Shown here piece by piece: positions 51,795 through 54,853 of a stretch of 64,000 nucleotides of DNA. The translations under genes were made by a program, and so were the position numbers. Source of the stretch: Thalassotalea sp. PS06. GTDB taxonomy: Bacteria; Pseudomonadota; Gammaproteobacteria; Enterobacterales; Alteromonadaceae. The notes below the pieces were generated by a model. It was not told the origin of the DNA. It made no database searches and saw nothing but the letters and a program-made list of their open reading frames with translations. The stretch lies in contig NZ_CP041638.1 of NCBI RefSeq assembly GCF_007197775.1, positions 3,720,001 through 3,784,000 of the forward strand, read 5' to 3'. Numbering within the stretch: the first letter of the stretch is position 1; the number at the start of each line of letters is the position of its first letter.

Positions 51795-51823
51795 AAAAAA
51801 CGCCCGCAAGGGCGTTTTTTTTT
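51795..51823 (+). terminator. Intrinsic terminator after pullulanase
   Basis: AAAAAACGCCC and GGGCGTTTTTT pair around GCAA, and nine T residues in total follow the stem. It closes the receptor-pullulanase unit. Confidence 0.9.
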
Positions 51824-51824
51824 G

Positions 51825-52034
51825 CACATGGACGTGCTTACCCTCCCGAACCATGGATGGTAGCAAGGGGGGGATTATTACAGGGATGTATGTATGCCCG
51901 TTGAGCAGGACGCGGTTAGGGTGTGTACATGGACGTGCTTAGTCGAGATATTGCCATCCATGATATCTCGACATATCGGAAGTCCTTTTACTAATCCTCC
52001 CGAACCATGGATGGTAGCAAGGGAGGATTTACTA
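51825..52034. repeat. Left mosaic inverted-repeat cluster
   Basis: About 210 bp contain short palindromes in the order C (51825-51840), A (51842-51873), spacer, C (51925-51941), B (51942-51972), A (51996-52026). A has ends CCTCCC/GGGAGG around GAACCATGGATGG. B has perfect 10 bp arms GTCGAGATAT/ATATCTCGAC around TGCCATCCATG. C is (G)(T/C)AC-ATGGAC-GT(G/A)(C). Each contains CATGGA(C/T)G or its complement. The whole is repeated in inverse orientation at 54565-54828. Confidence 0.85.
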
Positions 52035-52046
52035 GCTGAAAATTGA

Positions 52047-52346
52047 TTATTTACAGCTTATCTCTACCGTTTTAGGAGTCCATAGCGGCCCTACAACAGC
52101 GCTGGTTGCGCTGGATGCTAATCCATTAAGAAACGATGTTTCAGTTTTCACTGTAACCCATTCCTGTTCACCACAAATGTTGTTAAGCGCCACAGGATCT
52201 GATGCTTCATAAAGTGCTAACACTAAATTATGATGCCACTCTTCTTTCTTAACCACAGCGGTAGTTGCCGCTGGCTCTTTGTCGAAGTGGATGGTAGTGC
52301 ACGCGGAAAGCATTAGAGCCGAGATTAATGTGATTGTTTTTTTCAT
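52047..52346 (-). CDS. Bor-like lipoprotein 1
   Basis: This is a 99-residue lipoprotein with start at 52346 after AAGG at good spacing. The signal MKKTITLISALMLSAC ends in the lipobox LSAC. The mature part contains HHNLVLALYEASDPVALNNICGEQ, then VKTETSFLNGLASS, ending in VEISCK. The Cys-Gly motif, the VxTxxxFxNGL motif and the terminal Cys resemble Bor/Iss proteins of lambdoid phages and their chromosomal relatives. Function is unknown in this setting. Only 2 nt separate it from the next Bor-like gene on the same strand, so the pair is a tandem duplicate in one operon, inside the inverted-repeat interval. Confidence 0.65.
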   Translation of the reverse strand: MKKTITLISALMLSACTTIHFDKEPAATTAVVKKEEWHHNLVLALYEASDPVALNNICGEQEWVTVKTETSFLNGLASSATSAVVGPLWTPKTVEISCK

Positions 52347-52348
52347 AA

Positions 52349-52645
52349 TTAACCTTCCTCTGAGCACCAGACTTTAACAGAATGAGGCGAATAGATACCG
52401 AGAGTTAACAAAGCAAAAACACCTTCCTGGAAGGTTTGTTGGGATTGCATTTGAATCACTTCTTTGTCACCACAAATTTCCGTTACATTGACTCTATGTT
52501 CACCAACAAGTCCCCAAAAAAAGAAATTTTTTGAATCTTCATAGGTCGGCGGGTTTACGTACTTAGAGGTTTGCTCTGGTTGCATGGTTACTGTCGAACA
52601 TCCCGTCAGCACCAGCCCTAGCAATATTACAAATTTCTTAATCAT
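52349..52645 (-). CDS. Bor-like lipoprotein 2
   Basis: This is a 98-residue lipoprotein, signal MIKKFVILLGLVLTGC with lipobox LTGC. The core reads FFFWGLVGEHRVNVTEICGDKEVIQMQSQQTF in parts, then EGVFALLTLGIYSPHSVKVWC. That is closer to the canonical Bor family than its neighbour, including the LLTLGIYSP motif and final Cys. Bor confers serum resistance in lambda lysogens; a similar role here is not implied. No phage genes lie nearby, so this is the chromosomal family version. It is the first of the two-gene unit. Confidence 0.78.
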   Translation of the reverse strand: MIKKFVILLGLVLTGCSTVTMQPEQTSKYVNPPTYEDSKNFFFWGLVGEHRVNVTEICGDKEVIQMQSQQTFQEGVFALLTLGIYSPHSVKVWCSEEG

Positions 52646-52798
52646 AATTTACTCCTTGTAGAATAAGAAATACCTGACTTTCAGGTAACAAAGATACTAA
52701 CAGAGCAGTCGAAGATGATAAATAAGATACTGAGTTTATTAGTTTTTATAGAAACCAAATAACAAGAGCCCAGAAAACTCGGGAGCTGACAGTGATTT

Positions 52799-53047
52799 TT
52801 ACTTTTTAGAATGGTTATCGGGCCGCTGTTCCTGCTCGCGCTTAACCAGTAAAAATGTCAGATACATTTTGGTAGGTAGGGAAAATATCAGGCCAAAGGC
52901 AATGCAGGCGGCGCTGATAATCATCCCGGTAACGCCTAGCTTTTCAGGTAAATCAAACCAGTAGAGTAGGGAGTAACCCAGCACCAATAAAAAAAGCCCA
53001 ATTCCGATAGCGATCTTCAGTAATAAAATGAGTCGCGCTTCTGACAT
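52799..53047 (-). CDS. Small two-segment membrane protein, unknown
   Basis: This is an 82-residue protein beginning MSEARLILLLKIAIGIG. Two hydrophobic segments (about 5-30 and 40-58) are joined by a loop with FDLPEKLG, and a polar C-terminal tail KREQEQRPDNHSKK follows. It is probably an inner-membrane protein. No family is recognised. It lies between glmU (60 bp upstream on the same strand) and the Bor-like genes and could be read through from glmU. Confidence 0.6.
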   Translation of the reverse strand: MSEARLILLLKIAIGIGLFLLVLGYSLLYWFDLPEKLGVTGMIISAACIAFGLIFSLPTKMYLTFLLVKREQEQRPDNHSKK

Positions 53048-53107
53048 GGGCTTTTCTCTTTAATGGCTTTTTAATTAATTTGCTTTTATTTTGCTCTTAC
53101 TTTGCAC

Positions 53108-54466
53108 TTATTTTTTTGAGGGGCGCTTCCAGCCGCTAATATTGCGCTGTTTAGCACGTGCTACCGCTAAAGAATCATCTTCAACGTCTTTAACAATAAC
53201 TGAACCTGCAGCTGTGGTAGCCATATCACCGACCGTAACAGGCGCTACTAGCGAAGCATTAGAGCCAATAAACGCATTATCGCCGATAATAGTCTGCGAT
53301 TTATTTACGCCATCATAATTACAAGTAATGGTACCGGCGCCAATATTGGCTTTTGTACCAACAATAGTATCACCTAGATAAGTTAAATGACCGGCTTTGG
53401 AACCAGGGCCTAAGGTGGACTTTTTCATTTCCACGAAGTTACCGACATGGGCATCTTCTTTTAACACCGAACCCGGACGAATACGGGCAAATGGACCAAC
53501 ACTGGATTTATTTTCCAATACTGCATCTTCGATAATGGTATTTGGTTTTACCACCACATCATCACCGATCGTACAGTTGGTTAAGATACAGTTAGCGCCA
53601 ATTTCAACGTTATTTCCAACTGTTACATCGCCTTCAAAAATACAGTTAATATCAATTTCAACTTCTTCACCAACGCTCAATTCACCGCGGATATCAATAC
53701 GAGCAGGGTCGCGTAAACTCGCACCAGCAATCATCAATTGTTCTGCCTGACGAGCCTGGTACGCACGCTCTAAAGTAGCAAGCTGAACACGGTTATTGGC
53801 ACCTTCTACTTCAATCGCCGTTTCTGGGTGCGCGGTATGAATGGTTTTCCCTTCGCTATGGGCCATGGCAATTATATCGGTAAGGTAATATTCGCCTTGA
53901 GCATTATCGTTAGAAAGGTTACCCAACCAGCGCTTTAAGTCGCCGCCATTGGCAAGCAGGATTCCGGTATTTACTTCAGTAATTTTTAGCTGCTCGGGGT
54001 TTGCATCTTTTTGCTCGACAATACCGACAACCGTGCCGTTATCACGAACGATTCTACCGTAACCAGTAGGGTCATTAAGCTCTACGGTCAGCAACGCCAT
54101 TGAATCTTCTTGTTTTGCCGCTAACAGGCGCTCGAGGGTAGAAACCTGTGTTAACGGTACATCACCGTATAGAACCAGCACATCTTCATCGTCTTTGATG
54201 TGCTCACGAGCCTGATCTACCGCATGGCCAGTGCCCAATTGTTCCGCTTGTTCAACAAAGGTTAAATCATCGCCCTGTACAGCGTCTTTTAGTAATTCGC
54301 CGCCAAAACCATAAACAAGGTTAATTTGTTGGGCATCTAGCGCCCGAGCGGAATCGATAACATGCTCTACCATAGACTTGTGTGCGACAGGGTGGAGAAC
54401 TTTGGGAAGTTTAGAACGCATACGAGTACCTTTACCCGCAGCAAGAATAACGACTGAAAGAGGCAT
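53108..54466 (-). CDS. glmU: Bifunctional GlmU (GlcNAc-1-P uridyltransferase / GlcN-1-P acetyltransferase)
   Basis: This is a 452-residue cytoplasmic enzyme making UDP-GlcNAc for peptidoglycan and LPS. The N-terminal uridyltransferase shows [19 protein letters not shown], with the Gly-x-Gly-Thr-Arg-Met signature, and [10 protein letters not shown]. The C-terminal left-handed beta-helix has hexapeptide repeats and acetyltransferase residues in [29 protein letters not shown] and [14 protein letters not shown]. Full length is normal. It follows the atp operon as in most gammaproteobacteria, but here a 266 bp repeat cluster and terminator lie between them. Confidence 0.97.
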
Positions 54467-54564
54467 AATATTCCCTATATATTTTTATTCCCTTTAGTTT
54501 AATCGCTTTTGTACCGTTGCAAAACTAATCAGGGAATAATTCCTGAAAATTTCATAAAATTTAG

Positions 54565-54828
54565 AAACATTCCCCCCCTTGCTACCATCCATGGTTCGGG
54601 AGGATTAGTAAAGGGATTTACGATATGTCGGGATATCATGGAGGTCATATCCTGACAAGATACATGGACGTATTGAATGTCGAGATATCATGGACGGCAA
54701 TATCTCGACTAAGTACATCCATGTACATACACTTACCGCATCCTGCTATCAGGGCATACTTACATCCATGTAATAAACCCTCCCTTGCTACCATCCATGG
54801 TTCGGGAGGATAAGTACGTCCATGTACA
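54565..54828. repeat. Right mosaic inverted-repeat cluster
   Basis: This cluster reads, in plus coordinates, A-inverse (54573-54603), B-variant (54626-54657), C (54661-54672), B (54679-54709), C (54714-54725), spacer, C (54761-54772), A-inverse (54779-54809) and C (54814-54825). B at 54679 differs from the left copy by one base in 31. The B-variant arms (TGTCGGGATAT / ATATCCTGACA) keep pairing through an A-T to G-C change plus a G-T wobble. Relative to the left cluster it has one extra C plus B unit. Confidence 0.85.
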
Positions 54829-54853
54829 AAAAAGGCGCCAAATGGCGCCTTTT
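54828..54853 (-). terminator. Terminator of the ATP synthase operon
   Basis: AAAAGGCGCC and GGCGCCTTTT form a 10 bp stem with a 4 nt loop. On the minus strand the stem is followed by a run of T residues after the atpC stop. It abuts the right repeat cluster directly. Confidence 0.88.

Follow-up and report, generated by a model that had tools for sequence, protein, structure and literature searches.

Two-hairpin repeats with ANGGAX loops stand behind intrinsic terminators in Thalassotalea sp. PS06 and its relatives

According to the account in PMC4005645, the consensus that Csr/Rsm proteins bind with high affinity is a stem closed by an ANGGAX hexaloop. CsrB/CsrC, RsmX/Y/Z and Alteromonas Aln1a-c, which are described as dedicated small RNA genes, carry multiple A(N)GGA motifs, located in the loops of hairpins or in other single-stranded stretches (PMC5864184). 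RrA, RrB and RrF of E. coli are a precedent for a CsrA-binding RNA that arises when polymerase reads through a terminator into the sequence immediately downstream; they are presented as three near-identical copies belonging to rRNA operons (PMC8144298). Two hairpins with AYGGAY loops make up the TwoAYGGAY RNA (RF01731; PMC2864571, PMC4333381), for which a match to the CsrA-binding motif is reported (PMC4333381). Repetitive extragenic palindromic (REP) sequences of the GTAG/CGTC families are described as short dispersed intergenic palindromes with variable stems (PMC3733652). In this study we analysed a repeat family of Thalassotalea sp. PS06, which is built of two-hairpin modules and forms two clusters, at 51825-52034 (cluster 1) and 54565-54828 (cluster 2), in a window of 64,000 nucleotides of this single-contig 3.8-Mb genome (G000:C1:3720001-3784000).

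The anatomy of the modules was obtained by reading 31 places in PS06 and 26 loci of relatives, together with a listing of core pairs. In the common plan a short hairpin (about 14 nt) is followed, after a brief spacer, by a long one, which gives a module of about 55 nt. Cores were spaced by 25-26 nt inside a module and mostly by 27-29 nt to the next one, with a period near 53. In the module that we call M1 the spacer is TTA (elsewhere it is often WATG), and the long hairpin, A, has a GC-rich stem followed by GTTT. A second module, M2, has AT-rich stems (GTCGAGATAT) that lack a following T-run and point in the opposite direction. M2 is nested in M1 after the TTA of the latter, in opposite orientation (e.g. 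L001, L004, L005, L006, L010, L014), and L187 and L193 hold tandem arrays of it. Both window clusters are M1 composites with nested M2. The first-pass annotation of this DNA had distinguished at least three hairpin families, A, B and C; several stem families do exist, but C is the short hairpin of the unit, while A and B are the long hairpins of two modules. Further stem families were found in L199 of the PS06 genome and in L021, L032, L036 and L045 of relatives. In L199 (650-1020) an array with GTCATCATT and GCCGCCAT stems encloses a terminator-like hairpin inside a module; no tRNA was detected beside this array with ARAGORN.

The PS06 repeats share loops with the CsrB and RsmZ type of RNA and position with RrA/RrB/RrF. 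They differ from the former, as described, in being hairpin pairs dispersed behind terminators on both strands, and from the latter in being a mobile mosaic family. Compared with the REP families in their published description, they have no unpaired GTAG/CGTC foot and no intact REP-associated tyrosine transposase (RAYT), they keep a constant loop instead of a foot, and they are anchored to terminators. The feet, assessed by eye, are TTA or WATG; GTAG lies inside hairpin A and CGTC in loops of the opposite strand.

We observed a fixed orientation of both modules: M1 stands directly 3' of a terminator T-run, and M2 follows the reversed hairpin A within M1. The first core lay behind a T-run of at least five of an intrinsic terminator in 26/26 PS06 clusters checked. 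These were 26 of 27 places, 573925 (E 8e-4) being left out; the criterion of choice was similarity to cluster 1 and not position, and we assigned cluster ends and orientations by eye. Automated flagging gave a run of five T (T5) in 23/26, since its test window missed three. The short stem was kept with at least 3 bp in 21 of the 26 clusters; in 16 of these it starts exactly where the T-run ends, and in the remaining 5 no more than 2 nt from there. Five PS06 places picked by core pairs (L196-L200) had other stem families and were not all behind terminators. Among model hits that stand first in their array, T5 was present within 13 nt in 44/74, compared with 2.4% of background windows; this test drew on the 83 of 126 model hits that remained after removal, by hand, of weak ones and of duplicate loci. 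A run of five A was found downstream in none of 53 of these hits, which were kept by hand after their flanks had been inspected, so that the 42/53 with T5 upstream in this set is inflated. In G027, which belongs to another genus and has 46 hits, seven of eight fetched stretches lay behind a terminator, and in the eighth (L263) the chosen hit follows another module copy.

Cluster 1 gave 50 blastn matches in the PS06 genome, which we merged by hand into 27 places. Neither the cores nor the stems are thus unique to this locus, and a single local duplication is ruled out by the genome-wide matches. We searched 97 genomes with a covariance model, R1, at E 0.01 or better and found modules in 24 of them, namely in 13/15 of the genus (PS06 included) and in 11 outside it. 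These counts are lower bounds, as at most 58 candidates per genome were scored under strict filters, and G017, G039 and G108 are near the E limit. Congeners G001 and G007 had no R1 module at E 0.01. The genomes with modules include G013, G015 and G027. Further, we compared about 330 nt at the atpC site of PS06 and 10 other congeners (13 of 19 loci printed). PS06 carries the array, G003 and G005 have another stem family behind the terminator (the second core of G005 being broken), and G006 has a single core-like remnant. The site is empty in the remaining 7/10 (G001, G002, G004, G007, G008, G009, G010), and G009 has the same terminator hairpin and T-run. As the atpC site is occupied or empty among congeners, the repeat is mobile; it is terminator-anchored, and its copies are dispersed, nested and tandemly amplified. 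The first-pass annotation had taken the clusters for a structured, repeatedly copied element, and the dispersal in PS06, the copies in congeners and other genera and the empty atpC sites bear this out; it overlooked the anchoring to terminators and the identity of the core with the Csr/Rsm loop consensus. A query of 261 bp had no blastn match in phage or plasmid collections, and carriage by either was rejected on this ground. Five equal-scoring module copies each were present in G079 and G004. In G004 and G014 the flank resembles, by eye, that of the 23S-5S spacer copies of G026 and G079. In L241 of the module-free G001 another short tandem array, with units like catccccatatacttcgt, lies some distance behind the atpC terminator.

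The hairpins present ANGGAX loops, and the stem sequence is free so long as it is paired. To lessen circularity, sites were picked in two ways among loci already fetched, which had entered by similarity to cluster 1. In sites selected by spacer and GGA alone (n = 38), pairing at the four positions of the short stem is possible in 35, 36, 35 and 36 of the 38, and both arms of the stem show substitutions, including GC/AT and CG/TA switches. In sites selected by spacer and stem alone (n = 35), the loop has A in 33, G in 32, G in 32 and A in 34 at positions 1, 3, 4 and 5, respectively; position 2 (T24, G6, C2, A3) and position 6 (C10, T16, A8, G1) vary. A-N-GGA is absent in 4/35 of these sites, one of which (L028) reads CAGGAA. 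As a check of composition, we asked which triplets lie at the centre of hairpins of at least 4 bp in PS06 clusters; GGA did so most often (101/379), ahead of the mirror triplets CCA (65/287) and CCC (46/213) and then CAA (23/219). The annotators' remark that stems vary while cores stay was therefore correct: the stems covary and the loops stay A-N-G-G-A-X.

We consider inserted mobile modules whose read-through RNA would bind CsrA the best explanation of these data, with a probability of roughly 50%; their placement was observed directly, and the binding is what we infer. The target of insertion would be the terminator hairpin, and the reaction would probably be single-strand or structure-guided and performed by an enzyme. 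RNA polymerase reading through the terminator would make a transcript with two or more ANGGAX hairpins, and these would bind CsrA dimers, so that each copy may be a small read-through-dependent CsrA site acting like CsrB/RsmZ and E. coli RrA/B/F. One CsrA match is encoded in the PS06 genome. Strand bias was taken solely from the set free of the GGA-strand folding filter. Of 173 PS06 hairpins, 131 have the better fold on the GGA strand and 39 on the opposite one; among 114 from relatives these numbers are 83 and 30.

Several results weigh against this explanation. The non-GGA control also leans slightly one way (3812 vs 3112 of 7011). Hairpins in the 26 PS06 clusters are sense in 73 cases and antisense in 48, the GGA of M2 being antisense to read-through. 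Contiguous PS06 stems have no excess of G.U over A.C (17 vs 16; in relatives 8 vs 2). The 23S-5S spacer of G079 and G026 contains a GTCGCGA-stem module whose orientation is antisense to rRNA (L221, L222, L270, L271, L272). When the pairing frame was slid as a control, one or two of the four short-stem pairs still came close to the true counts (34 and 36 at a slide of -2, 35 at +1 and at +2), and no slide did so for all four together. Covariation scores agree with paired stems, being 0.400 against 0.198 shuffled for set A1 and 0.908 against 0.229 shuffled for A2, but the rows had been chosen with a loop pattern and a stem filter, so that invariant loops and pair counts are there partly by construction; on A2, 2/5 covariation measures fail to beat shuffles. 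Finally, a mobiliser was not found in PS06 by searches that covered the PF01797 and RVT_1 families.

Some of these observations would fit a purely DNA-level selfish palindrome, REP-like or similar to a miniature inverted-repeat transposable element (MITE), in which a structure-specific enzyme needs an NGGA apex and neither an RNA role nor a link to CsrA exists. Such an element would leave nested and tandemly amplified copies, oriented alike behind a hairpin, at sites that are occupied or empty, and the copies antisense to rRNA and the missing G.U bias of contiguous PS06 stems speak for it too. It does not account for a constant A, G, G and A with free N and X, which is the Csr/Rsm rule, and PS06 has no intact Y1 transposase or RVT_1 match, although other enzyme families were not searched. 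We regard this possibility as a serious one, though less likely than CsrA binding. It is improbable that the modules are back-up terminators or insulators, whose GC-rich long hairpin would halt leaking polymerase while the loops are incidental. The sense-orientation position directly behind terminators and the GC-rich M1 stem with its GTTT would suit that role; the reversed, AT-rich M2 stems without a T-run would not, and the strict loop consensus would be left unexplained.

Two further explanations deserve less credit. The repeats could be REP elements of a single RAYT-like gene at genome position 2328403-2329008, which lies 1.2 kb from a cluster and has GGA-loop hairpins upstream in 11/11 orthologs examined. 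These hairpins belong to a different array, the HUH motif is absent from all 11 orthologs while 17/17 other relatives have it, and G013, G015 and G027 have modules and no RAYT-like match, which makes this origin very improbable. Uptake signals or other protein-site repeats that form hairpins near gene ends, similar to DNA uptake sequences, seem hardly credible. Such signals number in thousands per genome, while the excess of the core is about 160; a core is repeated near gene ends here, but what the copies have in common is a complete module of about 55 nt, with stems that vary, and not one short word.

The RAYT-like (Y1_Tnp) gene (L048) is the only PF01797 relative found in PS06. Its protein is below the cut-off, has no HUH and has Phe at the Tyr position, so the active REP transposase that had been suggested as a partner of the modules was not borne out, and this gene lacks the features of a cognate RAYT. 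It occurs in 11/15 Thalassotalea genomes (L048-L051, L053-L059), and the orthologs form one clade (FastTree support 0.993). HUH was lost in 11/11 of them and Tyr in 6/11, while both are kept in 17/17 other relatives. We rejected it as the present mobiliser because it is below the cut-off, has no HUH and is missing from module-bearing genomes (no match to the RAYT-like protein in G013, G015 and G027). A PDB search for a relative of the L049 protein gave nothing credible. RVT_1 had 0 matches in PS06 and in 6 of 9 other genomes, with matches in G005, G012 and G027; retrocopying based on RVT_1 was rejected. Upstream of the RAYT-like gene there is a GGA-loop hairpin array, with 83 sense and 10 antisense hairpins over 11 loci (950 nt upstream; L048:551-1500), and in 8/11 loci a GGA hairpin stands immediately before the start codon. 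Sub-threshold CsrB/RsmZ matches were obtained upstream of this gene only, in L048, L050 and L053. The array may be the CsrB-like RNA of the genus or a Csr-controlled leader. A GacA/UvrY box was looked for upstream of the gene and rejected (best 10/12, inconsistent).

Comparison with described families did not give the modules a name. The CsrB/RsmZ covariance models (Rfam CL00106) had no match at the window clusters (to E 5) or at the modules of 20 loci (to E 1); members of that clan have several ANGGAX loops on one strand, and in PS06 the loops are present on mixed strands, in the proportion given above (73 sense, 48 antisense). In an Rfam scan of the window clusters and the 20 loci nothing exceeded the gathering score except a tRNA in L032, and sub-threshold names were scattered; a known Rfam RNA was rejected as the identity of the scanned clusters for this reason. 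TwoAYGGAY had one PS06 match, which lies on a cluster (2527930-2528081) and at 20 bits (E 3.26) stays below the gathering score of 43. Regarding MITE traits, the modules are hairpin pairs without long terminal inverted repeats by eye, and the transposase search was for PF01797 and RVT_1. Group IIC introns insert behind terminator hairpins in sense orientation, which is the likeness they have with the modules, and the PS06 genome has no RVT_1 match. A literature search of titles and abstracts, covering part of the matching literature, gave no description of this repeat family, which we count among the dispersed palindromic repeats. Possibly the modules serve as mobile landing pads for CsrA behind gene stop signals. 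If this is true, it joins dispersed palindromic repeats, REP-like and with a long-debated purpose, with the Csr/Rsm network and gives the repeat family a plain molecular ligand; terminators would become known as places where tiny mobile elements insert, and the genomes of Thalassotalea relatives would each be predicted to hold dozens of CsrA sites that are missing from annotation. We are doubtful of, and would only tentatively propose, a distributed CsrA sponge, in which mobile repeats would have the Csr hairpin as their hallmark, would place CsrA sites in pairs behind terminators throughout the genome and would have an output that reports read-through gene by gene, a catalytically dead RAYT relative with a CsrB-like leader array having been kept beside them in the genus.

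Direct reading of the sequence and an inverted-repeat search confirmed the two window clusters, their opposite orientation and their common module order. The inverted-repeat arms are 51818-51974 and 54677-54833 (157 nt, 89% identity) and 51952-52026 and 54573-54647 (75 nt, 91%), and cluster 2 has one nested-module copy more than cluster 1. About 13 CATGGA(C/T)G cores had been claimed; a strict count of CATGGAYG gives 5 for cluster 1 and 7 for cluster 2, 12 together, and the density is indeed far above chance. There are 353 such cores genome-wide and 192 for the reversed-pattern control, so that approximately 0.04 would be expected in the approximately 470 bp of the clusters. Folding z-scores of the clusters were -2.64 and -3.62.

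Cluster 1 begins on the plus strand at the terminator (hairpin and T-run, 51801-51823) of a pullulanase-type gene (TIGR02103 over cut-off), with an upstream fold of -17.2 kcal/mol and the stem gapless after the T-run. It continues with M1, composed of the short hairpin GCAC(ATGGAC)GTGC (51824-51837; R1 match 51823-51879, 75.6 bits) and the long hairpin A with a CCTCCC-type stem and the loop ATGGAT (51842-51872; sequence, inverted-repeat arms and R1). Module D (51879-51926, pairing by eye) has a short hairpin TAC(AGGGAT)GTA followed by a long one that is rich in G.U and whose loop contains CAGGACG. A second M1 copy is interrupted after its TTA: its short hairpin GTAC(ATGGAC)GTGC is at 51925-51938 (R1 match 51924-52033, 53 bits) and its hairpin A at 51996-52026 (inverted repeats, R1), both on the plus strand. 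Between them lies a nested M2 on the minus strand (51942-51991), which was identified by sequence and inverted repeats and has a degenerate short hairpin (51978-51991) and the long GTCGAGATAT hairpin (51942-51972).

Cluster 2 begins on the minus strand at the atpC intrinsic terminator (54828-54849), recognised by sequence, upstream fold, congener comparison and the T-run check. On the same strand follow M1 (54772-54828; short hairpin 54814-54827, hairpin A 54779-54809; R1 match, 81.4 bits), module D (54728-54773; short hairpin 54760-54773 and a long hairpin; inverted repeats, pairing by eye), the short hairpin of the interrupted second M1 (54713-54726; R1 54696-54727, E 0.0013) and, closing the cluster, a long hairpin A (54573-54603; R1 54566-54610, 42 bits). 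Two M2 copies are nested on the plus strand, one with the short hairpin ATAC(ATGGAC)GTAT and the long GTCGAGATAT hairpin (54660-54709; R1 54659-54716, E 0.032) and the other with the short hairpin GTAA(AGGGAT)TTAC and a long GTCGGGATAT-type hairpin (54608-54656; sequence and core-pair listing).

The bracketing of glmU by the clusters is incidental, because each cluster starts at its own terminator. The suggestion that the inverted pair around glmU acts as one unit was not borne out. In G002 (L255) and G039 (L248) glmU follows atpC in the same orientation and free of a cluster, so no inversion is shown by the glmU segment, and an inversion was rejected on this comparison. The genes between the clusters are those that had been named: two Lambda_Bor-family lipoproteins, an 82-aa protein and GlmU. 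The lipoprotein genes (PF06291) adjoin each other at window position 52047-52645, between cluster 1 and the 82-aa gene. The 82-aa protein has no Pfam match over the cut-off. Judged by GlmU (92%), the closest named relative of the genome is Thalassotalea litorea.

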